Shown piece after piece: positions 590 to 47,531 of a stretch of DNA of 64,000 bases. Positions within the stretch are counted from its first letter, which is position 1. Every line of letters starts with the position of its first letter. The position numbers and the translations under genes were made by a program. The stretch covers positions 348,324-412,323 of the forward strand of contig NZ_KB908454.1 in the NCBI RefSeq assembly GCF_000381965.1, read 5' to 3'. The notes under the pieces were generated by a model, which saw only the letters and a list, made by a program, of their open reading frames with translations, was not told where the DNA came from and made no database searches. The DNA comes from Oceanimonas smirnovii ATCC BAA-899 (GTDB lineage: Bacteria > Pseudomonadota > Gammaproteobacteria > Enterobacterales > Aeromonadaceae).

Positions 590-1876
590 TTATTTCGCCT
601 GTTCCCGCGCTATCGCCCGCCAGGCGATGTCGTTGCGGAAGAAGACACCATCCCACTTTATTTGATGAGTCAGCCCATAGGCATTGGCCTGAGCCTGGCT
701 CACGCTCTCGCCCAGGGCGGTGGCGCACAGTACCCGGCCGCCGGCGGTGACCACGTCCTCGCCCTTGAACTGAGTGCCGGCATGGAACACCTTGGCACCT
801 TCAGCTTCGGCGGGAATGCCGGTGATTACATCGCCCTGGCGGTAAGCTCCGGGGTAACCGCCGGCGGCCAGCACCACGCCTACGGCGGCGCGCTGGTCGA
901 ACTCGGCGGTGGCTTTATCCAGCTCGCCTTTGCAGCCGGCCAGGCACAGCTCCACCAGGTCGGACTTGAGCCGCAGCATAATGGGCTGGGTTTCCGGATC
1001 GCCAAAGCGGCAGTTGAACTCAATCACCTTGGGCTGACCAGCCTGGTCGATCATCAGACCGGCATAGAGGAAGCCCTTGTAGACATGGCCTTCGTCCGCC
1101 ATGCCGCGCACCGTGGGCATAATGACCTGCTCCATAATGCGATCGTGGATTTCCTGAGTCACCACAGGTGCCGGGCTGTAGGCACCCATGCCGCCGGTGT
1201 TGGGGCCGGTGTCCTTGTCGCCCACGCGCTTGTGATCCTGGCTGGTGGCCATGGGCAGCACATGCTCGCCGTCCACCATCACGATGAAAGAAGCTTCTTC
1301 ACCTTCCAGAAACTCTTCAATCACCACCCGGCTGCCGGCATCACCAAAGGCGTTGCCCGCCAGCATGTCGCGCACCGCGGCTTCGGCTTCTTCCAGCGTC
1401 ATGGCCACAATCACGCCCTTACCCGCGGCCAGGCCATCGGCCTTGATCACTATGGGGGCACCCTGCTGACGCAGATAGGCCAGCGCCGGCTCCACCTCGG
1501 TAAAGTTCTGGTAGGCGGCGGTAGGAATTTGCTGGCGGGCCAGAAAATCCTTGGTAAAGGCCTTGGAGCCTTCCAGCTGGGCGGCACCGGCAGTGGGGCC
1601 GAAAATGGCCAGACCTTCCGCTTCAAAGGCATCCACCACGCCCGCCACCAGGGGCGCTTCCGGGCCGACGATGGTCAGCTCCACTCGCTCCTGCCTGGCA
1701 AAGGCCAGCAGGGCGGGAATATCGGTGGCGGAGATGGCCACGTTGGTCAGCTGAGGCTCAAGCTCGGTGCCGGCATTGCCCGGAGCTACAAACACCTTGC
1801 TCACCTTGGGCGACTGGGCGGCTTTCCAGGCCAGAGCGTGTTCACGACCGCCACCGCCAATTACCAATACGTTCAT
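590..1876 (-). CDS. purD: Phosphoribosylamine-glycine ligase
   Basis: GAR synthetase (EC 6.3.4.13) joins glycine to 5-phosphoribosylamine using ATP, the second step of purine synthesis, in the cytoplasm. The 428 residues match the family's usual length. The N-terminus has the nucleotide-binding [11 protein letters not shown] loop (about residues 7-17). The ATP-grasp core includes [11 protein letters not shown], the conserved DHKR segment with [10 protein letters not shown], and the metal-binding [12 protein letters not shown] segment. It follows purH with a 15-base gap and is evidently co-transcribed with it, ending at the hairpin at 554-577. No defect is seen. Confidence 0.98.
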
Positions 1877-13443: not shown

Positions 13444-14985
13444 GTGGCCGCATTTCACTCTTCAAAAATTGCACTGTTACTTTTTTTGTTGCCAGTGTTG
13501 TTGTTTGTGCTGGCAATGCCCGCACTCATTTCGCCGCTAAGCACATATTTGTTAGAGCAGAAAATGAGAGAGGTGACAGCGTACCTGGATACTCGCTCAC
13601 AGGCTGTTGATAATATTATTACCAGGCAGCTTGCAGGCCTTCGTTTTGACTGTGGGCTGGGAGACATGGCCCTGTTGCGGGAGCCTAAATACTACAGTCG
13701 TTATATACGCATGACAGGTGTAAGCAATGCTGAAAATATCAGTTGCTCAAGTGTGGGCATGCCGTTTGACAGCGAGTATCTTCAGGCACCGGCTGCTGAC
13801 GGATTCACCTTGAAAAATACTCCCCGTTATGAAGGAACCGACAGTGAACTGATGGTACGTTACCAGATGCAGGGCAATATCGCATTCTGGGTATTGGACA
13901 GCAGTTGGGTGTGGGAGCTGATCGAGAGAGATTGTACCGGTTGTTTTCTGCTTTCCTTTCACTATCCGGGTTCCGGTATCGACAGCCTTGAACGGGGTAA
14001 TACAGCCATACCGCGAGAGCAGGGTGCCATGTTGATAGAGCAGGAAAAAATTCAACAGCACATTGGTCAACCTCCTGTTGTTAATCAGCAACAATTATGG
14101 GGAGGACAAATACTGCAAGAGCATGCTCAGGCATTGTTATGGCGATGGGGGGGAGGTGGCAGTGTTGTTTTCTCGTTAATACTGGCAGCAGGCTACCATC
14201 ACTCCCGTCGCTACCGTAATACTATTGGTGGCCTGATCAGGCAAAGTGTGAAGGATGAGGACTTTATTCCTTATTATCAGCCGGTAGTCGATAGCCGAAG
14301 CCAGAAAGTCGTTGGCTATGAAGTGCTGGTTCGCTGGAAAAAGGGAGGAGAGTTAATCACACCGGATCAGTTTATTCCTGCTGCAGAAACAGAAGGACTG
14401 GTGGGTGAGATAACCATGCAGTTATTGAACCATGTACTGCATGATCTGGAGCAGCTTGATAAGACACACTGGGTAAGCATTAATCTGGTTGCCGAGCATG
14501 TTGAGACTGACTGCCTCTTTCGCTGGCTTCAGGAGCGGCAATGGCCATGGTCTGACCGCATTAAATTTGAATTAACAGAGCGGGTTCCCATTAAAAACCT
14601 GCATCATGCAGATAAACATATTACTGCGCTGATTGAGCGGGGATATCAATTCAAGATAGACGATTTTGGAGTGGGTTACGGAGGTTTTGTTTATCTTCAG
14701 AAGTTAAATGTAGAAGGAATAAAAATAGATAAAATCTTTATTGATACTATTGGCACCAGTGATGCCAAACGCAGGGTGCTGGACTCCATCATTATATCTG
14801 CGCATCAGGTTAATATGTCGGTTATTGCTGAGGGGGTTGAAACGTTTTCTCAGGTTGATTATCTGGCACAACGTCATGTTTATCTGATTCAGGGATATGT
14901 ATATTACCGCCCTATGGCTATCTCTTCTGTTCTCGGTTTACCAGAGCGTGCTCAGGGCGCAACCAGATCGCAGCCGGCTGAATAG
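13444..14985 (+). CDS. Membrane CSS-motif EAL-domain c-di-GMP phosphodiesterase
   Basis: A 513-residue protein starting at GTG. One membrane helix lies at about 9-30, then a periplasmic CSS domain with Cys70 and the CSS triplet at 101-103, a second helix at about 231-250, and a cytoplasmic EAL domain from about 258 to the end. Catalytic signatures are present: YEVLVRW (Glu283, an EVL version of EAL), SINL, ELTER, IDDFGVGYGG, KIDK, AEGVE and QGYVYY. It therefore looks active and would hydrolyse c-di-GMP to pGpG. The architecture matches the E. coli PdeB/C/D/G/N group, where periplasmic thiol redox state (DsbA/B) controls activity. It stands alone behind the gabDT terminator. Lower c-di-GMP would favour motility, which ties it conceptually to the riboswitch at 27.4 kb. 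Confidence 0.9.
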   Translation: MAAFHSSKIALLLFLLPVLLFVLAMPALISPLSTYLLEQKMREVTAYLDTRSQAVDNIITRQLAGLRFDCGLGDMALLREPKYYSRYIRMTGVSNAENISCSSVGMPFDSEYLQAPAADGFTLKNTPRYEGTDSELMVRYQMQGNIAFWVLDSSWVWELIERDCTGCFLLSFHYPGSGIDSLERGNTAIPREQGAMLIEQEKIQQHIGQPPVVNQQQLWGGQILQEHAQALLWRWGGGGSVVFSLILAAGYHHSRRYRNTIGGLIRQSVKDEDFIPYYQPVVDSRSQKVVGYEVLVRWKKGGELITPDQFIPAAETEGLVGEITMQLLNHVLHDLEQLDKTHWVSINLVAEHVETDCLFRWLQERQWPWSDRIKFELTERVPIKNLHHADKHITALIERGYQFKIDDFGVGYGGFVYLQKLNVEGIKIDKIFIDTIGTSDAKRRVLDSIIISAHQVNMSVIAEGVETFSQVDYLAQRHVYLIQGYVYYRPMAISSVLGLPERAQGATRSQPAE

Positions 14986-25199: not shown

Positions 25200-27278
25200 G
25201 TGAACTGGAAAGGCCTTAGCCGTCCTTATATGGCCGTCCCCCTGCTGCTGATTGCCGTGCTCGCCATGGTGATTCTGCCGCTGCCGCCCTGGCTGCTGGA
25301 CGCCCTCTTTACCTTTAATATTGTGCTGGCGATCATGGTGTTGCTGGTAGCTGTATCGGCGCGCCGGCCGCTGGATTTCTCGGTATTTCCTACCGTGCTG
25401 CTGGTCGCCACCCTGATGCGGCTGACCCTGAACGTGGCCTCGACCCGGGTGGTGCTGCTCAGCGGCCATGAAGGGGCGGGGGCCGCTGGTAAGGTGATCG
25501 AAGCCTTTGGCGAGGTGGTGATCGGCGGCAACTATGTGGTGGGCATGGTGGTGTTCGTGATTCTGATGATCATCAACTTTGTGGTGATCACCAAGGGCGG
25601 CGAACGCATCTCGGAAGTAGCGGCCCGCTTTACCCTGGACGCCCTGCCCGGCAAGCAGATGGCCATTGATGCCGATCTGAATGCCGGTGCCATCGATCAG
25701 GAGCAGGCCCGTAACCGCCGGCAGGAAGTGGCCCGGGAAGCAGACTTTTACGGCTCCATGGACGGTGCCTCCAAGTTTGTGCGCGGTGACGCCATTGCCG
25801 GCCTGTTGATCCTCTTTATCAACCTGCTGGGCGGCTTCATGATTGGCATGTTCCAGTATGAACTGAGCGCCGCCGAGGCTTTTCAGCGCTTTGCCCTGCT
25901 GACCATAGGTGATGGTCTGGTGGCCCAGATACCCTCATTGCTGCTGGCCACCGCCGCCGCCATTATCGTGACCCGGGTCAATGACGACAGCGATATGTCC
26001 ACTCAGGTGGGCCAGCAGCTGCTGGCGTCGCCCCGGGTGGTATGGACCGGGGCGGCCGTTATGCTCATTCTGGGGCTGGTGCCCGGCATGCCGACCTTTG
26101 TGTTTCTGCTGTTTGCCGCGGTGCTGGGGTATGTGGCCTGGCGACTGCAGCAGGCCGATGGGGCAGCCGATGATTCGCTGGAGCAGGCGGAGCAATTACT
26201 GGCGCGGGAGCAGGATACTTATCCTGCTCTGGGCTGGCAGGATCTGCCCCAGGTTGATCTGCTGACCCTGGAGCTGGGCTACCGGCTGGTCAATCTGGTG
26301 CATGAAGAGCAGGGGGCTCCGTTGCTGGGGCGTATTCGCGGCGTACGCAAGAGCCTGTCTGAACAGGCCGGTTTTTTGTTGCCCGAAGTGCGGGTGCGCG
26401 ACAACCTGCAACTGGCACCGCAGGAATACCGCATCAAGCTGGCCGGGGTGGTGATGGCCAGTGGCAGCGCCGACGGTGAGCGCATGCTGGCCATTAACAA
26501 GGGCGAGACCTATGGCGAAATAGACGGTGAACTGACCCAGGAGCCCGCCTACGGCATGCCGGCAGTATGGATTGAGCCGGGTAACAAGGCCAAGGCCCTG
26601 AACTACGGTTATGCGGTGGTCGATTCCGCCAGTGTGGTGGCCACCCATGTCAGCAAGCTGATGCGCGAGCACCTGCCGGAATTACTGGTGCTGGATGATG
26701 TGACTCACTGGCAGGAGCGGCTGCAGCAGCAGGCACCCAAGCTGGCGGGCTTGCTGACAGAAGCACTGCCGCCGGTGCTGCTGCTCAAAGTCTTCCGTGC
26801 GCTGCTGAAAGAGCAGGTCAGTCTGGCAGATGTGGTGACCATTGCCACCGCTTTGGTGGAAGGGGCTGGTATTACACAGGACCCGGTATTGCTGGCGGCG
26901 GATGTGCGCTGCGCCCTGAAGCGGGTAATAGTGCGCCAGATTATGGGCGAGCGTGACGTATTAAGCGCCTTTACCCTGGCCGACACCCTGGAGCAGACCC
27001 TGCTCAGTGCCCTGAGTCAGGCCCAGCAGCAAAATGCCAAAACCAGTATCGACAGTTTTCCGGTAGAGCCCAACCTGCTGTCTCAGCTGCAGCAAAAAAT
27101 GCCGTCGGTGACAGAAACGTTACAGGAGCAGGGGGTGCCGGCAGTGCTGCTGGTGATACCTCAGCTACGTCCGTTGCTGGCCCGCTATGGAGCTGTCTTT
27201 GCCAAGGGGCTGAAAGTGCTTTCCTATAATGAAGTACCCGAGCATATTCAGATTGATGTGGTAGGTACGCTGGGATGA
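25200..27278 (+). CDS. flhA: Flagellar type III export protein FlhA
   Basis: A 692-residue export channel subunit starting at GTG with AGAGGTGA about six bases upstream. The N-terminal half (about 1-320) has eight membrane helices, including the conserved FHIPEP-like cytoplasmic loop, here around RFTLDALPGKQMAIDADLNAG with the charged residues that handle protons. The C-terminal domain docks chaperone-substrate complexes. It is the last gene of the operon, and a new regulatory region begins eight bases past its stop. Confidence 0.97.
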   Translation: MNWKGLSRPYMAVPLLLIAVLAMVILPLPPWLLDALFTFNIVLAIMVLLVAVSARRPLDFSVFPTVLLVATLMRLTLNVASTRVVLLSGHEGAGAAGKVIEAFGEVVIGGNYVVGMVVFVILMIINFVVITKGGERISEVAARFTLDALPGKQMAIDADLNAGAIDQEQARNRRQEVAREADFYGSMDGASKFVRGDAIAGLLILFINLLGGFMIGMFQYELSAAEAFQRFALLTIGDGLVAQIPSLLLATAAAIIVTRVNDDSDMSTQVGQQLLASPRVVWTGAAVMLILGLVPGMPTFVFLLFAAVLGYVAWRLQQADGAADDSLEQAEQLLAREQDTYPALGWQDLPQVDLLTLELGYRLVNLVHEEQGAPLLGRIRGVRKSLSEQAGFLLPEVRVRDNLQLAPQEYRIKLAGVVMASGSADGERMLAINKGETYGEIDGELTQEPAYGMPAVWIEPGNKAKALNYGYAVVDSASVVATHVSKLMREHLPELLVLDDVTHWQERLQQQAPKLAGLLTEALPPVLLLKVFRALLKEQVSLADVVTIATALVEGAGITQDPVLLAADVRCALKRVIVRQIMGERDVLSAFTLADTLEQTLLSALSQAQQQNAKTSIDSFPVEPNLLSQLQQKMPSVTETLQEQGVPAVLLVIPQLRPLLARYGAVFAKGLKVLSYNEVPEHIQIDVVGTLG

Positions 27279-27285
27279 GTAAAAG

Positions 27286-27315
27286 GTGAACACAAAATGC
27301 GCAAATTGTGTTCAC
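27286..27315. promoter_or_regulatory. 30-bp palindrome just after flhA
   Basis: GTGAACACAA (27286-27295) and TTGTGTTCAC (27306-27315) are perfect 10-bp arms around a centre containing TGCGCA, itself palindromic. No T-run follows. It is either a hairpin ending the flhA transcript or a two-fold symmetric operator ahead of the motY-lafK unit. Confidence 0.55.
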
Positions 27316-27351
27316 TCCGGTAATAGCCGCACTAAAAATGTTGTATTAGGC

Positions 27352-27380
27352 TTGCAACCATCCGGTTTATTTAGTCAAAT
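27352..27380 (+). promoter_or_regulatory. Possible sigma-70 promoter of the riboswitch transcript
   Basis: TTGCAA (27352-27357) and TCAAAT (27375-27380) are separated by 17 bp, each matching consensus at four of six positions. It would start transcription a few bases before the riboswitch. A -24/-12 reading of the same stretch fails because the GG is missing. Weak. Confidence 0.3.
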
Positions 27381-27397
27381 GCTGACGCACTAAAATA

Positions 27398-27496
27398 CTG
27401 TTGCTGATGACAAGGGCAAACTGCGTGAAAACGCAGGACGCAAAGCTTCCGGTCTAAGGGAAATTACTTCCTATGATAGCGGGGTCGCCAAGGCAG
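27398..27496 (+). ncRNA. c-di-GMP-I (GEMM-I) riboswitch
   Basis: The stretch carries the GEMM-I core in order. First is GGGCAAAC (27413-27420 and next base). The P2 hairpin follows, CTGCGT-GAAA-ACGCAG (27421-27436) with its GAAA tetraloop. Next come GGACGCAAAGC, the CCGGTCTAAGG tetraloop receptor, a short hairpin GGAA/TTCC, then ATGATAGCGGGGTCGCC. The outer P1 is probably CTGTT (27398-27402) with GGCAG (27492-27496). It binds the bacterial second messenger c-di-GMP. It lies ahead of motY-lafK, so it would control the lateral flagellar activator LafK and the fliEFGHIJ genes behind it. The downstream hairpins and T-run fit a transcriptional switch. Confidence 0.93.
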
Positions 27497-27503
27497 GTTA
27501 CCT

Positions 27504-27580
27504 TTCTGGCGTTTCGCCACCTGTAAAACCTTTCTCAGCGTTATTCTCATCCTGGCTTCTGGCCGGGCCGGTGTTTTTTT
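27504..27580 (+). terminator. Expression platform with terminator-like hairpin and T-run
   Basis: A hairpin TGGCG-TTT-CGCCA followed by CCTG (27508-27523) can extend by pairing CCTG with CAGG of the riboswitch P1 strand. A second hairpin, CTGGC-CGG-GCCGG (27559-27571), is followed by TGTTTTTTT (27572-27580), ten bases before the motY ATG. Competition for the P1 3' strand would link ligand binding to termination. On or off polarity cannot be read by eye. Confidence 0.6.
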
Positions 27581-27590
27581 GCCGGTTTAA

Positions 27591-28451
27591 ATGACACAAC
27601 ACAAGATGAATAAGCTAGCAATACTTAAAGGCATCGCCTGCCTGAGTGTATTGCTGGGCAGCGCTGCAAGTCTGGCTAATTACGTGACCGAGCTGGATCA
27701 GGCTGTCTGGCATGCCGAGCGAAGAGCATCTCGCTGCGTACTTGAACATGTCATCCACAATGTCGCCCGTGCCCGTTTCAGTCCCGGCTCCGACAAGCAT
27801 CCTTTACTGACAGTGACCTGGCATGCCCGTGGCATTCAGGGCGGGCCGGCTGTACTGACCGTTGTGCCTGCACCCTGGCAACAGCTGCCGGAGCTAAGCT
27901 TGAGTCAAAGCCAATGGCAGAACCAGACACTGATCTTCAGCCAGCAGGTGCCTGATGCACTGACTGCATTGGCCAACGGTCGCTGGCTGGCCATTACCGA
28001 GCCGGGCAATCCGCGTCGCATTGTGATTCCCAGTATTCATTTTCAGCAGGCTTACAGTGAATATCGCCGGTGCCTTGGCACCGGCAGTGCAGAGCCTGTT
28101 GCAGATGACAGTGGCCTTATCCTGAATTTTCAGTCTGGTGCCCGCGAATTGAGTGCCGGGCAGCAGCATCAGATTGCGGCACTGGCGTCGCGCATTAACA
28201 CGAACGAGCCGGTTTCCCTGCTGCTGGAGTCTTATACCGACAACAGCGGCTCCGCGTCACTTAATCTTGAATTATCCCGTCAGCGGGCGGAACAGGTGGC
28301 AGCTGAATTGCGCCGTTTTCATCCTGCTCTGCCTATCACCATTCGTGCGTTTGGCGAGGCTTATCCGTTAGCCGAAAACACCACTCCTGCCGGACGTTAT
28401 CAAAACCGACGTCTTGTTATTTCTCTGCTCAAGGTGGAAAAAGCATCATGA
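27591..28451 (+). CDS. motY: MotY-like T-ring protein with OmpA domain
   Basis: A 286-residue exported protein with a signal peptide (about 1-29). The N-terminal domain resembles MotY, with Cys49 and Cys161 placed like the conserved MotY disulfide. The C-terminal OmpA-like peptidoglycan-binding domain (about 175-280) contains LLLESYTDNSGSASLNLELSRQRAEQV and YQNRRLVISL. In Vibrio, MotY forms the periplasmic T-ring that holds stators. Neither ATG 27591 nor ATG 27606 has a clear ribosome site; translation may depend on the riboswitch platform. It overlaps lafK by four bases. Confidence 0.85.
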   Translation: MTQHKMNKLAILKGIACLSVLLGSAASLANYVTELDQAVWHAERRASRCVLEHVIHNVARARFSPGSDKHPLLTVTWHARGIQGGPAVLTVVPAPWQQLPELSLSQSQWQNQTLIFSQQVPDALTALANGRWLAITEPGNPRRIVIPSIHFQQAYSEYRRCLGTGSAEPVADDSGLILNFQSGARELSAGQQHQIAALASRINTNEPVSLLLESYTDNSGSASLNLELSRQRAEQVAAELRRFHPALPITIRAFGEAYPLAENTTPAGRYQNRRLVISLLKVEKAS

Positions 28452-29800
28452 ACTCAAGTTGTTACTCTTCCTCTTTGCTCTGGCTGATCTCCAACAGTGG
28501 TATGCCTGACAAGTGCTGTGATGCCTTACGCAAGGCGGGCTACCAGTCTGAGCAGGCCACAGTGCAGACACGCAGTGAACACAAGCCTGCGGTGATCCTG
28601 ATGGACAGCGACCTGGGAGCCGGTTTTATCGAGCAGATCCAGTTACTGAGCAGCCGGTTTCCGCAGGCAGTGATCCTGGCCATGGTGGAGCAGGGTGAAA
28701 GTGCGCTGGCCGGAGAGGCCCTGCGCGCCGGCGCCAGTGATTATGTGCTCAAGCCGTTTCAGCCCAGTCAGCTGCTCAGAGTGCTGGGCCAGAGCCTGGC
28801 GCTGCGCAATAGTACCGGTGACATGGTGGTACGCTCGCGGGCCGGTTTGCAGGTGCTGCAACTGGCGTACCGGGCCGCACAAACTCCCGCTGCCGTGCTG
28901 ATAGGCGGCGAATCGGGGACCGGCAAAGAATGTCTGGCCCGTTATATCCATCAGGTTTCCGATCGCAGTGAAGGGCCCTTTGTGGCGGTCAACTGCGCCG
29001 CCATTCCCGAAAGCATGCTGGAGGCGGTGCTGTTTGGTTACAGCAAGGGGGCTTATACCGGTGCGGCTCAGGCTCAGGCGGGCAAGTTCGAGCTGGCCAA
29101 CGGCGGCACCCTGCTGCTGGATGAAATTTCCGAAATGCCTCTGGCGCTGCAAACCAAGCTGCTGAGGGTATTACAGGAAAAGGAAGTGGAGCGGCTGGGC
29201 AGTCATCAGAAAGTTAATCTGAATGTGCGCATTATTGCAGCCTGCAACAAGGATCTGCGGGAAGCGGTCAGCGCCGGCGAGTTCCGGGAAGATCTGTTCT
29301 ACCGGCTGGATGTATTGCCACTGAGCTGGCCGGCACTGAGAGAGCGGGCGGAAGATATTATGCCCCTGGCACGTCACTTTCTGCACAAATACGGCCAGGG
29401 TGAGTCGTTTAGCTTCACCGTGGAAGCAGAGCGGGCGCTGCTCAGCTATCCCTGGCCCGGTAATATTCGTGAGCTGGAAAACGTGATTCAGCGGGCACTC
29501 ATTCTGGCCCGCAGCGCCATTATTGATATACCGGATCTGATGCTGCCCGATGCTGGCCAGGGCCGGGCTGCCAACGTCTTGCTGCCGCTCAGTCAGCCGG
29601 TAGCGGAAAAGGTGGCTGACGGACTGCAGGCCAGCCGTCAGCGTGCCGAGTTCGACTATGTGCTGCAGATATTGCGCCAGCACAGCGGGCATCGCTCCCG
29701 CACCGCAGAAGCCCTGGGGCTGACCACCAGAGCACTACGCTACAAGCTTGCAGCCATGCGTGAGCAGGGCATTGATATTGACCGCGCCTTAGGAGCCTGA
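28448..29800 (+). CDS. lafK: Sigma-54-dependent lateral flagellar activator LafK
   Basis: A 450-residue enhancer-binding protein of the FlrA/FleQ/LafK group. The N-terminal receiver-like domain (about 8-118) keeps Asp53 and Lys102 but lacks the usual acidic pocket after the first strand (LWLISN), so it is probably not phosphorylated normally. The AAA+ domain has Walker A GGESGTGKE (153-161), the sigma-54 loop GAYTGA (201-206) and Walker B LLLDE (222-226). A Fis-type helix-turn-helix ends the protein (RTAEALGLTTRALRYKLAAM). It is translationally coupled to motY behind a c-di-GMP riboswitch. Likely targets are the -24/-12 promoters before fliM and flgB. Some relatives bind c-di-GMP directly; that is not judged here. 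Confidence 0.9.
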   Translation: MNSSCYSSSLLWLISNSGMPDKCCDALRKAGYQSEQATVQTRSEHKPAVILMDSDLGAGFIEQIQLLSSRFPQAVILAMVEQGESALAGEALRAGASDYVLKPFQPSQLLRVLGQSLALRNSTGDMVVRSRAGLQVLQLAYRAAQTPAAVLIGGESGTGKECLARYIHQVSDRSEGPFVAVNCAAIPESMLEAVLFGYSKGAYTGAAQAQAGKFELANGGTLLLDEISEMPLALQTKLLRVLQEKEVERLGSHQKVNLNVRIIAACNKDLREAVSAGEFREDLFYRLDVLPLSWPALRERAEDIMPLARHFLHKYGQGESFSFTVEAERALLSYPWPGNIRELENVIQRALILARSAIIDIPDLMLPDAGQGRAANVLLPLSQPVAEKVADGLQASRQRAEFDYVLQILRQHSGHRSRTAEALGLTTRALRYKLAAMREQGIDIDRALGA

Positions 29801-29802
29801 CC

Positions 29803-30126
29803 ATGACTATTTCCCCCGAAAGCGCCCAGCAGGCCATGCTGGTTCGTCTTAATCAGCTGCAGCATCAGGCTCAGGGCGGGGTCACTATTACCCCTGCCGC
29901 AGAGCAGGGCAGTTTTGGTGACATGATGAAAACCACGGTACGTGCCATTAATCATGAGCAGATGCAGGCGGCCAGTCTGATGACGGCGGTGGAAACCGGT
30001 GCCAGTGAGGATCTGGTGGGCGCCATGCTGGCCAGCCAGAAGGCGGGCCTGAGTTTTTCTACCCTGGTGCAGGTGCGTAATAAAATGATGACGGCGTTTG
30101 ACGACATCATGCGCATGCCGCTGTAA
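29803..30126 (+). CDS. fliE: Flagellar hook-basal body protein FliE
   Basis: A 107-residue protein joining the MS ring to the rod. The C-terminal pattern ASEDLVGAMLASQKAGLSFSTLVQVRNKMMTAFDDIMRMPL is the FliE signature (residues about 67-107). It lies two bases after lafK, which suggests that lafK and the basal body genes share one transcript. Confidence 0.95.
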   Translation: MTISPESAQQAMLVRLNQLQHQAQGGVTITPAAEQGSFGDMMKTTVRAINHEQMQAASLMTAVETGASEDLVGAMLASQKAGLSFSTLVQVRNKMMTAFDDIMRMPL

Positions 30127-30135
30127 GGAGTTGTG

Positions 30136-31830
30136 ATGGCACAAGCAAGCACACTGATGGCTGCCGGCCAGCCGTTTAAAACCGGATTTGGCAAGGCCCG
30201 TTCCCGCTGGCAGAGATTGTCTGATCATCATCGGCAGGTGATTTTACTGGGTAGTCTGGCACTGATGATAGCCGTCGCTGTGGTGGTGTTTCTGTGGCAG
30301 GCGGGGCGCAGTTTTGTTCCGCTTTACGGCAAGCAGGAACTGTACGATCAGGCACGCATCGTGGAGGTGCTGGAGCAGGAGCAGATTCCGTTCCGGCTGG
30401 ATGCTCACAGTGGCCAGATCCTGGTAGATGAAGCGCTGCTGGGACAGGTACGAATGCAGCTGGCCGCTCAGGGGGTTAAGGCCATGCTGCCTGCGGGCAT
30501 GGACGAGCTGGCTCAGGGCACCGGGTTTGGCACCAGTCAGTTTATGGAAACCCGCCGTTATCGCCATGCCCTGGAAGGCGAGCTGGCGCGCACTATTATG
30601 GCGCTGGACTGGGTGCGGCAGGCCCGGGTGCATCTGGCCATGCCCGAACGAACCCTGTTTATTGGCCGGGCCGAGCAGACTCCCACCGCTTCCGTGATGC
30701 TGGATGTGGTACCGGGGCACGGGCCGGATCCGGCGCAGGTAGAAGGGATTGTCAATCTGGTGTCCGGCAGCGTGCCGGGCATGACGCGTGATAAGGTGTC
30801 GGTGATTGATCAGCGTGGCCGGGTGCTCAGTGATGAGCTGACCATGAACGGCCAGAGCCGCGGCCTGAGCCTGCGCCAGGTGGAATACAGCCGCCAGCTG
30901 GAGCAGCAACTGGCCCAGCGCGCGCGGGATATGTTGTATCCGGTGCTGGGTGGGAATAACTTTCGCGTGCAGGTCACTGCCGATCTCGACTTTAACGCAG
31001 TGGAAGAAACCCGGGAAAGCCTGGATAAAACACCGGTATTGCTGCGGGAAACCGGCAGTGAAAACCGCACTCAGAACAGCCTGGAACTGGGTATTCCCGG
31101 CGCGCTTTCCAACACGCCGCCGCAAACCGACGCCGAGAGTGAAAATACCGACAGCAAAGACAACCAGAGCCAGCGTGAACAGCGGGAATATCAGCGCCAG
31201 TTCGAGAGCGGTCGCTCGGTGGTGCACACCCGTTATCAGAGTGGCCGTATCAAGCAGCTGAGTATTTCCGTGTTGCTGAACCAGAGCGCGGCACCGGAAG
31301 GCGGCTGGGATCAGCAACAGCTGACTCAGCTGGGGCAAATGGTGCAGGGGGCGGTAGGGTTCAGCCAGGCGCGCGGCGACAGTTTTGCTTTGTCCAGTTT
31401 TGATTTCGCGCCGCAAGCCGTGCTTACCGAGTTTCCGGAGCAGCTGGCCTGGTGGCAGCAGCCACAAACTCAGGCTTATGCCCGTTATCTGATCGGTGCT
31501 TTTATGGTGCTGGCGATATTGCTGCTGGGCGTGCGGCCATTGATACGCCACCTGGGCACTAATCAGAAAGCGGCGGCCCTGCGTGAGCTGCAGGCAGCGC
31601 TGCCCGACGCTGGTGAGCATGGTGCCTCGGCCGCTCTGCCGGGGCAGATGGCGTCTGTTGAGCGGGCAGGACCACACACCACACTACCCTGGGAAGCGGA
31701 TGAGCGGGAGTGGCAGCTGCCGCCGCCGGGCAGTGAACTGACAGTGCAGGTTACTCACCTGCAGCTGCTGGCCGAGCGTGAAACCGACAGAGTGGCGGAA
31801 GTTATCAAACACTGGATTAAAACATCATGA
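30136..31830 (+). CDS. fliF: Flagellar MS-ring protein FliF
   Basis: A 564-residue inner-membrane ring protein. AAGGAG (30125-30130) is five bases before ATG 30136, so I prefer it to GTG 30133. Two membrane helices (about 33-53 and 456-475) flank the periplasmic ring-building motifs. The N-terminal YscJ-like part (VPLYGKQELYDQARIVEVLEQEQIPFRL) and the C-terminal cytoplasmic tail that docks FliG are present. Overlaps fliG by four bases. Confidence 0.96.
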   Translation: MAQASTLMAAGQPFKTGFGKARSRWQRLSDHHRQVILLGSLALMIAVAVVVFLWQAGRSFVPLYGKQELYDQARIVEVLEQEQIPFRLDAHSGQILVDEALLGQVRMQLAAQGVKAMLPAGMDELAQGTGFGTSQFMETRRYRHALEGELARTIMALDWVRQARVHLAMPERTLFIGRAEQTPTASVMLDVVPGHGPDPAQVEGIVNLVSGSVPGMTRDKVSVIDQRGRVLSDELTMNGQSRGLSLRQVEYSRQLEQQLAQRARDMLYPVLGGNNFRVQVTADLDFNAVEETRESLDKTPVLLRETGSENRTQNSLELGIPGALSNTPPQTDAESENTDSKDNQSQREQREYQRQFESGRSVVHTRYQSGRIKQLSISVLLNQSAAPEGGWDQQQLTQLGQMVQGAVGFSQARGDSFALSSFDFAPQAVLTEFPEQLAWWQQPQTQAYARYLIGAFMVLAILLLGVRPLIRHLGTNQKAAALRELQAALPDAGEHGASAALPGQMASVERAGPHTTLPWEADEREWQLPPPGSELTVQVTHLQLLAERETDRVAEVIKHWIKTS

Positions 31831-32852
31831 GCGAGCAGCAGACTGAACAGATCACCGGCCTGAATCTGGAAGATATTGAAAAAGCAGCGGTATTGCTGCT
31901 GAGCATGGGAGAGTCTGCCGCCGCCCGGGTGCTGCAGCGCCTCGACAGGGATGAAGTCAATCAGGTGACTACCGCCATGGCCCGCCTGAGCGGGGTCTCG
32001 GCAGACTCTGCCCGGGGGACGCTGCAGGAGTTTTTTGATCTTTACCGGCAGCAGAGTGGCATTAATTCGGCATCGCGGGAATACCTTGAGCGAACCCTGG
32101 ATCTGGCGCTGGGTGAAAAGCTGGCCCGCGGCTTGCTGGACTCCATGTACGGTGATGTGGTGCGCCATGAGATTCAGCGCTTGCAGTGGGTACAACCCGA
32201 GCTGCTGGCACGTTTTCTGCAGCAGGAACATCCCCAGATGCAGGCGGTGATCCTGGCATTTTTGCCTGCCGACTCTGCTGCTGCCGTTCTGTCTTTGCTG
32301 CCCGGGGAGAGCCATGACGAGCTGCTGCTGCGTGTGGCCAACCTCAACGAGGTGAGTGAATTCGTGGTGGTGGAGCTGAAGGCGGCGCTGGCCCGCTGTA
32401 TGGAGTTTGTGGCGCACAATGCCGGTGCCCGGGTTGACGGGGTGCGGCAGGTGGCTGACATCGTCAATCGCTATCAGGGTAACCGGGGCGAGCTGATGGA
32501 GCTTATCAAGCTGCATAATGCGGAAAAAGCCGGCGATATTGAACGCAATATGTATGACTTTACCAGCCTGGCCAGGCAAACACCGGAAACCCTGCAACGC
32601 ATTGTGCAGGATCTGCCGGTGGAGGTGCTGGGGCTGGCGCTGAAAGGTGCCGAGAGCCAGGTGCGCCGGGCCATGCTGGAAGCCATGCCCAGACGCATGG
32701 CGCAGCAGATGGAGCAGGATATGCTGCGTCAGGGGGCCGTGGCGGTAAGCCGGGTAGAAAATGCCCGTCAGGACGTGATGAACCTGGTGCGTGAGCTGGC
32801 TGAACAGGGCGAGCTGGAATTCCAGCTGTATGAAGAGCAGGTGGTGAACTAG
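31827..32852 (+). CDS. fliG: Flagellar motor switch protein FliG
   Basis: A 341-residue rotor protein that contacts the stators. The N-terminal FliF-binding part begins at LEDIEKAAVLLLSMGE. The middle domain has the conserved EHPQ motif (QQEHPQMQAVILAFL, about 133-136). The C-terminal domain carries the charged torque helix (GAESQVRRAMLEAMPRRMAQQMEQDM). Length and motifs are normal. It sits between fliF and fliH with overlapping ends. Confidence 0.96.
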   Translation: MSEQQTEQITGLNLEDIEKAAVLLLSMGESAAARVLQRLDRDEVNQVTTAMARLSGVSADSARGTLQEFFDLYRQQSGINSASREYLERTLDLALGEKLARGLLDSMYGDVVRHEIQRLQWVQPELLARFLQQEHPQMQAVILAFLPADSAAAVLSLLPGESHDELLLRVANLNEVSEFVVVELKAALARCMEFVAHNAGARVDGVRQVADIVNRYQGNRGELMELIKLHNAEKAGDIERNMYDFTSLARQTPETLQRIVQDLPVEVLGLALKGAESQVRRAMLEAMPRRMAQQMEQDMLRQGAVAVSRVENARQDVMNLVRELAEQGELEFQLYEEQVVN

Positions 32853-33562
32853 TGAAACGACACTTCCGAAACGGGAATATGCCGGTTGCCTACCGCCGTT
32901 ATCGCTTTCCGCCGCTTTATGGGGAGCCTCAGCAACCGGAGGCCAGTCAGGAGGAAGAGCAGGCGGCTTACAGCGAAAGTCTGGAGCAGGGTTATCAAGA
33001 TGGTCTGCAGCAGGGACATGCCGCTGGTCTGGAGCAAGGCCGGCAGGAAGGACTCAGGCTGGGAATGGAGCAGGGCATTGAGCAGGGCCGGCAGCAGAGT
33101 CTGGCTCAGCTGCGGGAGTTACAGCAAAATCTGGCTGATGAGCTGCGTCAGTGGCAAAGCAGCGCCGAGCAACAATGGCAGCAAGTGTCGTTGTCAGCAC
33201 TGCACCGCCAGCGGGAGCAGTTGTGCCAGCTGGTGGAAGAAGTATCACGGCGGGTGATCCGCTCCGAGCTGACACTGAATCCGCAGCAGGTGCTGGTGAT
33301 AGTGGAAGAAGCCCTGAGCGGCATCGACAGCCGCACCCAGGAGCTGCAACTTTTTGTGAACCCGGATGATCGCGCCCGGCTGAAGGAAATCGGCATCACC
33401 GAGTGTCAGGGCTGGGCGCTGCATGAAGATGCGGCATTGGCGCCGGGAGATTGTCGCATCGAAACCGAAACCCTGACCCTGGAAGCGCTTACCGAAGAGC
33501 GTCTGCAAAAGGGCATGGCGCGGGTGGCCCGAAGCCTGGAAAGCAGTGATGAGCCTGCTTGA
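32852..33562 (+). CDS. fliH: Flagellar export ATPase regulator FliH
   Basis: A 236-residue FliH starting at GTG, which overlaps the fliG stop by one base. A Gln/Gly-rich coiled coil (about 38-100) shows repeated GxxxG-type spacing (GYQDGLQQGHAAGLEQGRQEG), typical of FliH. The C-terminal part (VEEVSRRVIRSELTLNPQQVLVIVEEAL) binds FliI. It ties the ATPase to the C ring through FliN. Confidence 0.9.
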   Translation: MKRHFRNGNMPVAYRRYRFPPLYGEPQQPEASQEEEQAAYSESLEQGYQDGLQQGHAAGLEQGRQEGLRLGMEQGIEQGRQQSLAQLRELQQNLADELRQWQSSAEQQWQQVSLSALHRQREQLCQLVEEVSRRVIRSELTLNPQQVLVIVEEALSGIDSRTQELQLFVNPDDRARLKEIGITECQGWALHEDAALAPGDCRIETETLTLEALTEERLQKGMARVARSLESSDEPA

Positions 33563-34895
33563 GCACCGGCTGCAGCTGGCCCGGGCGGCACTCAATGACG
33601 AGCTGGATATCGGGCAGGTGTATGGCCGCCTGCTGCGGGTAACCGGTAATTTACTGGAGGTATCCGGCTGCCGGCTGGTGATGGGGCAACGCTGCTTTAT
33701 CGATACCGACGGCGGCGGCGAGCTGGAAGCCGAAGTGGTGGCGCTGGATCGGGAACAGGCCATGCTGCTGCCGCTGGGTACCACTTCGGGTCTGTATGCC
33801 GGTGCCCGGGTGCGCCCCTGTGCCAGTGAGGCCAGCATACCGGTGTCGTCTCTGGCGTTAGGCCGGATTGTTGACGGCCTGATGCGGCCGCTGGATGGCC
33901 TGCCTGCCATCAAGGGGCAGCCGGTGCCCTGGCAGTCCGCCATTCCTAATCCGCTGTTGCGCCGGCGGGTAAGCGAGCCTCTGGATGTGGGGGTGCGTGC
34001 CATTAATGTCCTGCTGACACCGGGCAAGGGCCAGCGGCTGGGACTGTTTGCCGGCCCCGGCGTGGGCAAGAGCGTGCTGCTGGGCATGATGGCCCGTTAC
34101 ACTCAGGCCGATGTGGTGGTGGTGGGACTGATTGGCGAGCGGGGCCGGGAAGTGCGTGAATTTATTGATGACTGCCTGGGTGAGCAGGGCAGAGCCAAAA
34201 CCCTGGTCATTGCCGCTCCGGCGGATCAAAGCCCTCTGCTGAGAGTGCGGGCAGCGGAAAGTTGCCACCGGGTAGCGGAGTATTTTCGGGATCAGGGCAA
34301 GGATGTGCTGCTGCTGATGGATTCACTGACCCGTTATGTGCAGGCCCGGCGCGAGATTGGACTGGCGGTGGGAGAGCCGCCGGTGGCCCGGGGGTATCCG
34401 CCTTCTGCCTTCAGCGCCCTGACCGGGCTGGTGGAGCGGGCCGGCAATGGCGAACAGCAAAGCGGCAGCCTGACCGCGTTTTATACGGTGCTGGCGGAAG
34501 GTGACGATCAGCAGGATCCGGTGGCTGATGCGGCACGGGCCATTCTGGACGGTCATGTGGTACTCAGCCGGCAACTGGCGGAGCAGGGGCATTATCCGGC
34601 TATTGATATCGGTGCGTCGATCAGCCGGGTAATGAGCAAAGTAGCCACTCCTGAACACCTGGCGCAGGCGGTGCTGTGCAAGCGCTGGTTTGGGCTTTAT
34701 CAGCAGGTACGGGAGCTGCTGCCCCTGGGCGGCATTCAAAGTGGTAAAAGCCGGGAAACCGATGAAGCCATTGCAGCTTATCCGGCTCTGGCGGCGTTTT
34801 TGCAACAGAGCGAGCACGAGCCGGTCAGCCTGCAGCAAAGTTTGCAGCAACTGGCGGAACTGACAGGTAACCACAATGCGCAGACACCTGATTAA
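33549..34895 (+). CDS. fliI: Flagellum-specific ATPase FliI
   Basis: A 448-residue hexameric ATPase of the F1-beta type powering flagellar export. ATG 33549 has GGAAAG five bases upstream; GTG 33546 is the alternative. Walker A is GLFAGPGVGKSVLLG (about 164-178), followed by GLIGERGREVREF with the catalytic Glu, and Walker B DVLLLMDSLTRYV. It overlaps fliH by 14 bases and fliJ by 20. Confidence 0.96.
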   Translation: MSLLEHRLQLARAALNDELDIGQVYGRLLRVTGNLLEVSGCRLVMGQRCFIDTDGGGELEAEVVALDREQAMLLPLGTTSGLYAGARVRPCASEASIPVSSLALGRIVDGLMRPLDGLPAIKGQPVPWQSAIPNPLLRRRVSEPLDVGVRAINVLLTPGKGQRLGLFAGPGVGKSVLLGMMARYTQADVVVVGLIGERGREVREFIDDCLGEQGRAKTLVIAAPADQSPLLRVRAAESCHRVAEYFRDQGKDVLLLMDSLTRYVQARREIGLAVGEPPVARGYPPSAFSALTGLVERAGNGEQQSGSLTAFYTVLAEGDDQQDPVADAARAILDGHVVLSRQLAEQGHYPAIDIGASISRVMSKVATPEHLAQAVLCKRWFGLYQQVRELLPLGGIQSGKSRETDEAIAAYPALAAFLQQSEHEPVSLQQSLQQLAELTGNHNAQTPD

Positions 34896-35286
34896 CCAAC
34901 AGAAAGAGCAGCTCACCAGCCTTATTCAGCAGCGCGATAACCTGCAGCAGCGGGCACAACAGCTGCAGCATCAGCACCAGGCGCTGTTACAGGCCAGAAG
35001 CGGACTGGCGGCAGTGCCGGCGGGCGGGGCACTGGGCTTGCTCAATCAAGGTCATATACGACAACAGCTGAATGCTGTGATTGACGGCCACCGGCATCAG
35101 CTGGCTGCAGCACAGCAGGACAGCGAGCGCCTGCAGCGGCTGAGCCGGCAGCAGGCGGGTAAAATCAAGGGGCTGGAATTACTGGAGCAAAAACGGGCGG
35201 AGCAGTATCACCGCGAACAGCAGCGGCGGGAATGGGAGGCTCAGCTGGAGTGGTGTGTCAGGCCGGCTGATAAACGGCCTCGGTAA
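34876..35286 (+). CDS. fliJ: Flagellar export chaperone FliJ
   Basis: A 136-residue, Gln-rich, almost wholly alpha-helical coiled coil, usual for FliJ, which inserts into the FliI ring and engages FlhA. Identification rests on size, composition and position after fliI. Its 3' end overlaps the convergent flgN by 29 bases, so the two transcripts can pair. Confidence 0.88.
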   Translation: MRRHLINQQKEQLTSLIQQRDNLQQRAQQLQHQHQALLQARSGLAAVPAGGALGLLNQGHIRQQLNAVIDGHRHQLAAAQQDSERLQRLSRQQAGKIKGLELLEQKRAEQYHREQQRREWEAQLEWCVRPADKRPR

Positions 35287-46627: not shown

Positions 46628-46673
46628 AATTGAGTGAACCAAGCACCTCATGCTTTTTTACAAGGAAACGATT

Positions 46674-47531
46674 ATGGGCCTGTCCATTCATACCAATTAC
46701 ACCTCTCTGGTTACCCAGAACACCCTGAACAGCACCAACAAGATGCTGGGCACCGCCATGGAGCGCCTGGGCACCGGTTTTCGTATTAACTCCGCCGCCG
46801 ACGACGCCGCCGGCCTGCAAATTGCCGTGCGCCTGCAGGCCCAGACCAACGGTCAGGGTGTGGCCATGCGTAACTCCCAGGATGCCATCTCCATGATGCA
46901 GACTGCAGAAAGTGCGTTTGATGAAATGACCAACATCGCTCAGCGCATGAAGGATCTGGCCACTCAGGGTGCTAACGGCACCAACTCTGCTGCGGAAAAC
47001 ACTGCGCTGAACACGGAATATCAGCAGTTGGGTGAAGAACTGGCCAATATTATGGCCAACACCAGCTACGGCGCTGGTACCAATCTGTTTGCTGCTGCTG
47101 GTAAGTTTGAAGCAGCGGGCGGTGTTAAATTTCAGATTGGCGCTGGAACGACAGAAACCCTGACCGTTGATGTCAGCACCGAAGTGAAGGCGCTTAACAC
47201 TGATATCGGAGCAGCCGGTGCTGTCACTCTGGGCGATCTGACCAATCAGGCTAATTCGACTACTGCGATTACTGACATGAACACCTTGCTGGATTCGGTC
47301 AGTGCAGTGCGTGGTAAGCTGGGTGCCAATATCAACCGTCTGGAGCATACCATTACCAACCTGGGCAATATGCGCGAGAATGGTGAAGCTGCCAAGGGCC
47401 GTATTATGGATGCCGACTTCGCCTCCGAAGCGTCCAATATGTCCAAAAACCAGATGCTGATGCAGTCCGGCATGTCGGTGCTGAGCAATGCCAACCAGAT
47501 GAGCGGTCTGGTGATGTCGCTGCTGCGTTAA
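46674..47531 (+). CDS. lafA1: Lateral flagellin 1
   Basis: A 285-residue filament protein. ATG 46674 ([12 protein letters not shown]) has AAGGAAAC four bases upstream; an ATG at 46650 is not used. The conserved N-terminal (about 1-140) and C-terminal (about 215-285, ending [12 protein letters not shown]) coiled-coil domains assemble the filament core. The exposed middle is short, as in small lateral flagellins. It is followed by a terminator and a second flagellin gene with nearly identical ends. Confidence 0.95.

Follow-up and report, generated by a model that had tools for sequence, protein, structure and literature searches.

A candidate c-di-GMP-I riboswitch in the 5' leader of motY-lafK in the lateral flagellar cluster of Oceanimonas smirnovii

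The DNA that precedes motY-lafK in O. smirnovii ATCC BAA-899 raises the question of whether c-di-GMP can act directly on the message for LafK, the sigma-54-dependent activator of a lateral flagellar system. In the accessible parts of the literature, c-di-GMP suppresses swarming by Aeromonas as well as the lateral flagella of Shewanella. The Shewanella effect is credited to protein receptors there; for Aeromonas, those texts name no route that leads directly to lafK. If the message of the master activator carried a riboswitch, c-di-GMP would have a direct, testable route to the choice between settling and moving. The analysis reported here covers a window of 64 kb (the whole stretch of DNA that was analysed) and a sample of related genomes. 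It makes it fairly probable that motY-lafK-fliEFGHIJ carry a c-di-GMP-I riboswitch in their 5' leader, which would be off at high c-di-GMP through an anti-aptamer exchange.

The aptamer and the genes that follow it

A covariance-model scan of the window with Rfam detected a match to RF01051 (c-di-GMP-I) with a score of 81.7 bits and an E-value of 1.6e-14. The gathering cut-off of this family is 35 bits, and the match spans the full model (1-87) without being cut off. It is the sole Rfam match above threshold in the whole window and the sole RF01051 match detected in the 3.28 Mb genome. No match to c-di-GMP-II was found in the genome, and the control for that search likewise gave no match anywhere. 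The GAAA-capped P2, the GGACGCAAAGC junction, CTAAGG and GATAGCGGGGTCGCC are all present in the RF01051 alignment of the window aptamer, and CTAAGG in P3 is presumably the receptor of the GAAA tetraloop on P2. The original prediction, which had recognised a c-di-GMP-I aptamer by these core motifs, is thereby borne out. P2 carries compensatory changes within the genus of the window. By its sequence and score, the element is a genuine full-length c-di-GMP-I aptamer, and c-di-GMP binding is predicted.

The window has G at the position that we take to be G20 of Vc2, which presumably indicates c-di-GMP rather than cGAMP as the ligand. G is found there in 39 of the 40 lateral aptamers as well. The remaining one, located before motY-lafK in genome G309 of family f6 (L179:3778-3867, minus strand), has an A, which we assume to be a mark of cGAMP-type relatives; this aptamer is possibly responsive to 3',3'-cGAMP.

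The 3' end of the aptamer lies 113 nt upstream of the conserved motY start, on the same strand. For this start, the in-frame ATG at 27606 is a better candidate than the one at 27591: the former is common to seven of the eight leaders of the genus and the latter is absent from some of them. The genes motY, lafK and fliE-J all lie 3' of the aptamer on one strand (Table 1), in the order that had been read from the sequence, and both domains and gene order agree with that reading. The genes fliE-F-G-H-I-J are probably on the same transcript as motY-lafK. FliE and FliF score above their NCBIfam cut-offs, and FliG, FliH, FliJ and the FliI equivalogs score below theirs. For LafK, none of the 25 NCBIfam models shown reached its cut-off; the name is assigned by domains, homology and synteny, i.e., a putative sigma-54 activator gene between motY and fliE.

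The lateral flagellin LafA is encoded at 46650-47531 (NF038071, 462 bits vs. a cut-off of 365), and the genome has two FlhA genes, one in the cluster and the other elsewhere. Because of this flagellin and the second FlhA, the cluster is a second, lateral system, as originally proposed. A second, distant MotY is also present in the genome. A search of a collection of genome contigs with MotY returned nine loci, all in Pseudomonas-type records, with mainly the C-terminal (OmpA) part matched. Taken together with the strand and distance of motY, the sequence supports the placement of the aptamer in the 5' leader of motY-lafK within the lateral flagellar cluster.

The original prediction also pointed to a CSS-EAL phosphodiesterase gene. 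The gene is indeed about 14 kb away (13444-14985); its relevance did not hold up, and a role for it was set aside, since no link beyond distance was seen and genes of other function intervene, among them those for a metal-ATPase, PurT and a chromate transporter.

Table 1. Features of the motY-lafK leader and its surroundings (window coordinates)
Feature	Position	Strand	Basis
flhA (lateral set), gene 5' of the leader	25200..27278	+	TIGR01398, 792 bits
Block TTAGTCAA.T..TG.CGCA, candidate promoter or activator site	27371..27389	+	Letters invariant in 8/8; putative function
Aptamer 5' flank GCUGAUGACAAGG, would form the 5' side of an anti-aptamer helix	27403..27415	+	Invariant in 8/8
c-di-GMP-I (GEMM-I) aptamer	27405..27492	+	RF01051, 81.7 bits, full length; G at the presumed Vc2 G20
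Hairpin A, GCAGGU...ACCUGU + inner stem	27493..27524	+	Stem 97.9% paired, nearly invariant
CCUUUCUCAGC, proposed anti-aptamer element	27529..27539	+	Invariant in 8/8; complementary to 27403-27415
Hairpin B, CCUGGC/GCCGGG	27551..27567	+	93.8% of cells paired; in two species, one pair has changed in a compensatory way
Hairpin C, CCGG/CCGG	27568..27585	+	100% of cells paired; one compensatory change
motY (lateral type)	27606..28451; longest-frame start 27591	+	MotY_N and OmpA domains; conserved in 8 genomes of the genus
lafK, sigma-54-dependent activator	28448..29800	+	Sigma54_activat, Response_reg and HTH_8 domains
fliE-F-G-H-I-J, basal-body and export genes	29803..35286	+	Gene order, NCBIfam matches

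Recurrence of the aptamer before lafK

Within the genus, 23 genomes were surveyed. A close MotY homologue (E of 1.6e-55 or better) is present in eight of them; the other 15 have only weak matches, with E of 2e-23 or worse. In all eight lateral-MotY genomes an RF01051 match lies 99-149 nt upstream of the MotY match, and a frame with the FlhA C-terminus lies upstream of the leader. RF01051 matches occur in other settings in G003, G007, G015, G016 and G021, which are without lateral MotY, and G018 has a second match besides that in the leader.

The survey was extended to LafK loci (matching the window LafK with E of 1e-118 or better) in 394 genomes that sample the order without exhausting it, supplemented by deeper LafK matches in 75 genomes of the family. 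Family paralogues at E of about 1e-102 to 1e-113 were left out as polar-type. The loci were read against RF01051 positions and Rfam scans. G172 (f2) was dropped from the counts because its contig ends inside the region; G018 was kept though its motY runs off the contig and its lafK is on another one, as was G140, whose match to RF03167 (57.7 bits) is just below the cut-off of 59. Among the 53 lateral lafK loci that could be tested, 39 have an aptamer of the c-di-GMP-I type in the leader of motY-lafK or of lafK by itself, so that the element originally noticed in one genome recurs widely among its relatives. In family f1 the positive loci are distributed as 8/8 in the window's genus (g1), 19/20 in g4, 1/1 in g5, 0/2 in g3 and 0/1 in g2; in other families, as 4/4 in f16, 3/3 in f7, 1/5 in f6, 3/3 testable in f2 and 0/5 in f22. 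We take g4 to be Aeromonas and f1 to be Aeromonadaceae on the grounds that the g4 leaders of a chitinase-like gene (named by eye) look, on visual inspection, almost the same as that of A. caviae KAM479 (L121); f22 is, as a guess, Vibrio-like. No close LafK was found in A. caviae KAM479 (best 43.9%). The lateral lafK leader of V. campbellii LJC015 lacks the aptamer (0/1), which together with f22 gives 0/6 for Vibrio-type systems, unlike the window. This absence offers a natural comparison, and the recurrence elsewhere makes the element a general property of many lateral systems and not a curiosity of one genome.

In the g4 loci the aptamer is followed by lafK with no intervening motY, and the lafK frame has its first ATG 172-196 nt 3' of the GGACGC core of the aptamer (17 loci measured). 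Since the aptamer sits directly on lafK there, and lafK is common to all loci, lafK appears to be the shared target. The sole aptamer-negative g4 genome, G038, has a match of 28.3 bits (E 0.13) in the right place (L159:1108-1198, plus strand), which is below the cut-off and is an apparent remnant of a decayed aptamer. In g5, G026 carries tandem aptamers before lateral lafK (L152:858-949 and 1087-1179, plus strand; 67.4 and 66.4 bits). The tandem pair is followed by a strong hairpin and a T-run, and a third aptamer is located about 7 kb upstream (L192:984-1071).

The gene upstream on the same strand is flhA in 8/8 g1 and 4/4 f16 loci and in G026, G058 (the one positive g4 locus examined for it), G309 and G386. 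No flhA was found within 1.2 kb upstream in G075 (f2) or, in the longer flanks examined, directly upstream in two f22 and four f6 aptamer-negative loci. The g3 negatives and G038 do have flhA directly upstream, and gene order is therefore an imperfect predictor of the aptamer.

A LafK tree was built from 31 rows that have the aptamer and 11 that lack it (42 in all; G058, G309, G422, G432, V. campbellii, f7 and f2 were left out). It requires three label changes, fewer than any of 500 shuffles. This would fit one gain and two losses of the aptamer, with several long branches that leave the deep order unsure. The recurrence at 39 of 53 loci in several families implies that the placement is old and selected; the 14 loci without an intact aptamer indicate that a lateral system can do without one. 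A wider view, which we hold tentatively and with slightly less than even confidence, is that c-di-GMP-I on lafK is a default, ancient second-messenger input of the lateral systems of this order outside Vibrio. It would have been doubled in tandem in one lineage, exchanged for or turned into the GGC variant in a second and altered at the ligand position (A20, perhaps for cGAMP) in a third, and Vibrio and some others would have lost it and rely on protein receptors. If true, the c-di-GMP-I-on-lafK input has outlived the divergence of the remaining leader.

Aptamers of this class were also seen before other genes. Those before 865-aa chitinase-like genes (by eye) are L120:6017-6100 in Photobacterium sp. 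DA100 and L121:4994-5080 in A. caviae KAM479; neither place has any annotated feature listed, and the KAM479 record is chromosome-sized (4.9 Mb), yet labelled plasmid. At L003, L005, L006, L008-L011 and L017, Aeromonas-type aptamers precede a short, apparently secreted protein (by eye). Downstream in these loci, CCCUUUUCGU is complementary to the aptamer AAAGGGC and to the Shine-Dalgarno region ACGAAAAGG, an arrangement that resembles, as far as complementarity can tell, a translational off switch. In G132, a second frame resembling MotY has a lysine riboswitch (L139:442-612, minus strand, 76.1 bits) about 1 kb away.

Leader structure and possible readout

The leader alignment comprises eight rows, i.e., all eight lateral-MotY genomes of the genus, and aligns over its entire length. 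The order of elements is the TTAGTCAA.T..TG.CGCA block, the aptamer, GCAGG...CCUGU, CCUUUCUCAGC, two hairpins and the start codon. The aptamer 5' flank overlaps the P1/J1-2 region. RNAalifold, unprompted, pairs this flank with CCUUUCUCAGC through 11 bp with two bulges. All these pairs are invariant in the eight rows, so there is no covariation to support the helix. In single sequences the complementarity of the two segments is not exceptional, 49-81 of 500 shuffles being as good in seven species; in G022 another segment pairs better (25/500 shuffles as good). The pairing probability of the flank with CCUUUCU in single-sequence ensembles ranges from 0.0 to 0.92 across the eight species. The 5' arm of hairpin A could double, as judged by eye, as the 3' strand of P1 with UUGC at 27401-27404.

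The structure tested on this alignment consists of P2, hairpins A, B and C and the CCUUUCUCAGC helix. It is paired in 95.7% of cells vs. 31-47% in slid controls. Six pairs are changed on both sides (three in P2 and one each in the inner stem of hairpin A, in B and in C) against a shuffle mean of 2.9, with 4 of 500 shuffles as high; the covariation score is 0.179 vs. 0.084 in shuffles (0/500 as high). The inner stem of hairpin A is 69-80% paired as aligned, and its length varies between species. The window leader shows no exceptional stability (z of -1.53, 15 of 200 shuffles as stable). The three hairpins are conserved and RNAalifold proposes the anti-aptamer helix, but single-sequence folds disagree, and whole-leader single-sequence folding was set aside because its structures are inconsistent among leaders.

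The original prediction described hairpins and a T7 run ending ten bases before the first gene. The run is where it was said to be (27574-27580, with ATG at 27591); its function as part of a terminator found no support. That the hairpins before T7 form an intrinsic terminator once c-di-GMP is bound seems unlikely to us, though two terminator-like sites at 27551-27571 are followed by T7, and Cd1 of Clostridioides difficile uses a terminator mechanism according to the available text of a review (PMC6366702). The consensus scan gave these two sites in 501 bases vs. a shuffle mean of 0.8 (sd 0.9), i.e., not clearly above chance. A strict scan found no terminator in any of the eight genus leaders, window included, and flagged terminator-like hairpins in 9/17 Aeromonas-type leaders, in one of the four from f16 and in the tandem-aptamer leader of G026; these are raw counts without a shuffle control, and the scan covered these four groups of leaders. 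In addition, T7 falls inside the loop of hairpin C, the stem of which is kept in relatives while the loop varies: T5 in G009, T4 in G022, TATTCTGATG in G008 and CACTCTGCTG in G010. Because the T-run in the loop is not conserved and both scans are unfavourable, we discarded a terminator as the principal model of the window leader. Termination may be used in other lineages, e.g., in Aeromonas-type leaders.

Another possible platform is a single element that pairs with either the aptamer 5' flank or the Shine-Dalgarno sequence; this was evaluated with 200 shuffles per leader. In f7, the number of shuffles as good is 12 for G310, 1 for G386 (the two being near-copies) and 30 for G378; in the four f16 leaders it is 3, 74, 8 and 49. 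It amounts to 61-160 in seven leaders of the window's genus and 1 in G022, 22-188 in 17 Aeromonas-type leaders, 181 in G309 of f6, and 33, 196 and 29 in f2. In f7 (G310 and G386), either the motY Shine-Dalgarno region or the aptamer AAAAGG is a possible pairing partner of CCUUUUAUUU, and a related pattern occurs in two of the four f16 leaders. By this test the element is absent from seven of the eight leaders of the window's genus, and Aeromonas-type leaders have no shared element. The model was rejected as a general platform. Since the results vary so widely by lineage, no single platform explains all lineages; the association of aptamer and gene is kept while the readout is not uniform.

Direction of the switch and known relatives

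We infer that c-di-GMP most likely turns lafK off. At high c-di-GMP the ligand would bind and the aptamer would retain its own 5' flank; expression of motY-lafK would drop, and LafK and lateral flagella would not be made. At low c-di-GMP, CCUUUCUCAGC would pair with the aptamer 5' flank and hairpin A would take the 3' flank, so that the message would be expressed. The readout would be translation or Rho-dependent termination, an intrinsic terminator being the less likely in the window.

The off direction is favoured because the literature on Aeromonas swarming, S. putrefaciens PdeB and C. difficile Cd1 points to repression. As stated in the accessible parts of the respective papers, GGDEF overexpression inhibits swarming in Aeromonas and EAL overexpression acts oppositely (PMC5247445), the phosphodiesterase PdeB stimulates lateral flagella in Shewanella putrefaciens (PMC9061725), and Cd1 acts as an off switch of the flgB operon in C. 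difficile (PMC6366702). The Aeromonas and Shewanella findings also weigh against an on switch, in which c-di-GMP would raise motY-lafK expression. Such a switch is quite improbable in our estimate, even though c-di-GMP riboswitches of both signs exist, the review cautions in its available text that regulatory traits do not transfer between species (PMC6366702), and lateral flagella of Aeromonas are described, in the part at hand, as also serving adhesion and biofilm formation (PMC5247445). The c-di-GMP effect on lateral flagella of S. putrefaciens is ascribed in the text available to the proteins FlrA2 and MotL (PMC9061725), and this protein route would count against the riboswitch model as a whole. 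It is less probable still that the aptamer is real but does not control motY-lafK, the main transcript starting downstream or the aptamer belonging to a separate small RNA. A consensus scan saw no sigma-70 promoter in 27200-27700, which agrees with such a view; aptamer and gene are nevertheless linked at most of the loci surveyed, in several families, though the intervening sequence differs, and 13 aligned Aeromonas-type leaders share, 3' of the aptamer, the lafK start region and a conserved UGRUUG/CAAUCA hairpin just before lafK.

The RNA class and its use on a flagellar operon are already known from Cd1 (Cdi-1-3), which belongs to the same class and stands in the 5' leader of flgB, an early flagellar operon with a flagellar regulator gene, sigD. 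Cd1 works by transcription termination in a Gram-positive organism with peritrichous flagella, whereas here the genus of the window has no conserved terminator, and the target is the sigma-54 activator of a second, lateral system in Gammaproteobacteria. Vc1 (gbpA) and Vc2 (tfoX/tfoY) of V. cholerae are of the same aptamer class and also from Gammaproteobacteria, but their target genes differ. The c-di-GMP-I riboswitches of Aeromonas on putative fimbrial and chitinase genes are of the same class and presumed genus as 19 of the lateral examples and serve other genes; the accessible text of the review that lists them does not mention the lafK leader (PMC6366702).

The original prediction knew of no earlier account of the placement on lafK, and a search of the open-licence literature, as far as its texts were accessible, likewise brought up no account of lafK under a riboswitch. 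A lafK mutant is part of a study of A. hydrophila that makes no mention of c-di-GMP in its available part (PMC5013049), and the main text, as available, of a survey of contiguous riboswitches mentions neither flagella nor Aeromonas (PMC12452182). The accessible text on A. salmonicida A449 reports 11 riboswitches and a lateral cluster and leaves the genes preceded unspecified (PMC2556355); elements of this kind may therefore be annotated in databases already.

The three f2 leaders (L185, L184 and L181) match RF03167, the c-di-GMP-I-GGC variant, with 61.1, 59.4 and 57.7 bits. The variant occupies the same place before motY-lafK, whereas the window aptamer is a standard RF01051 element; its position in f2 gives a gene context for the GGC variant.
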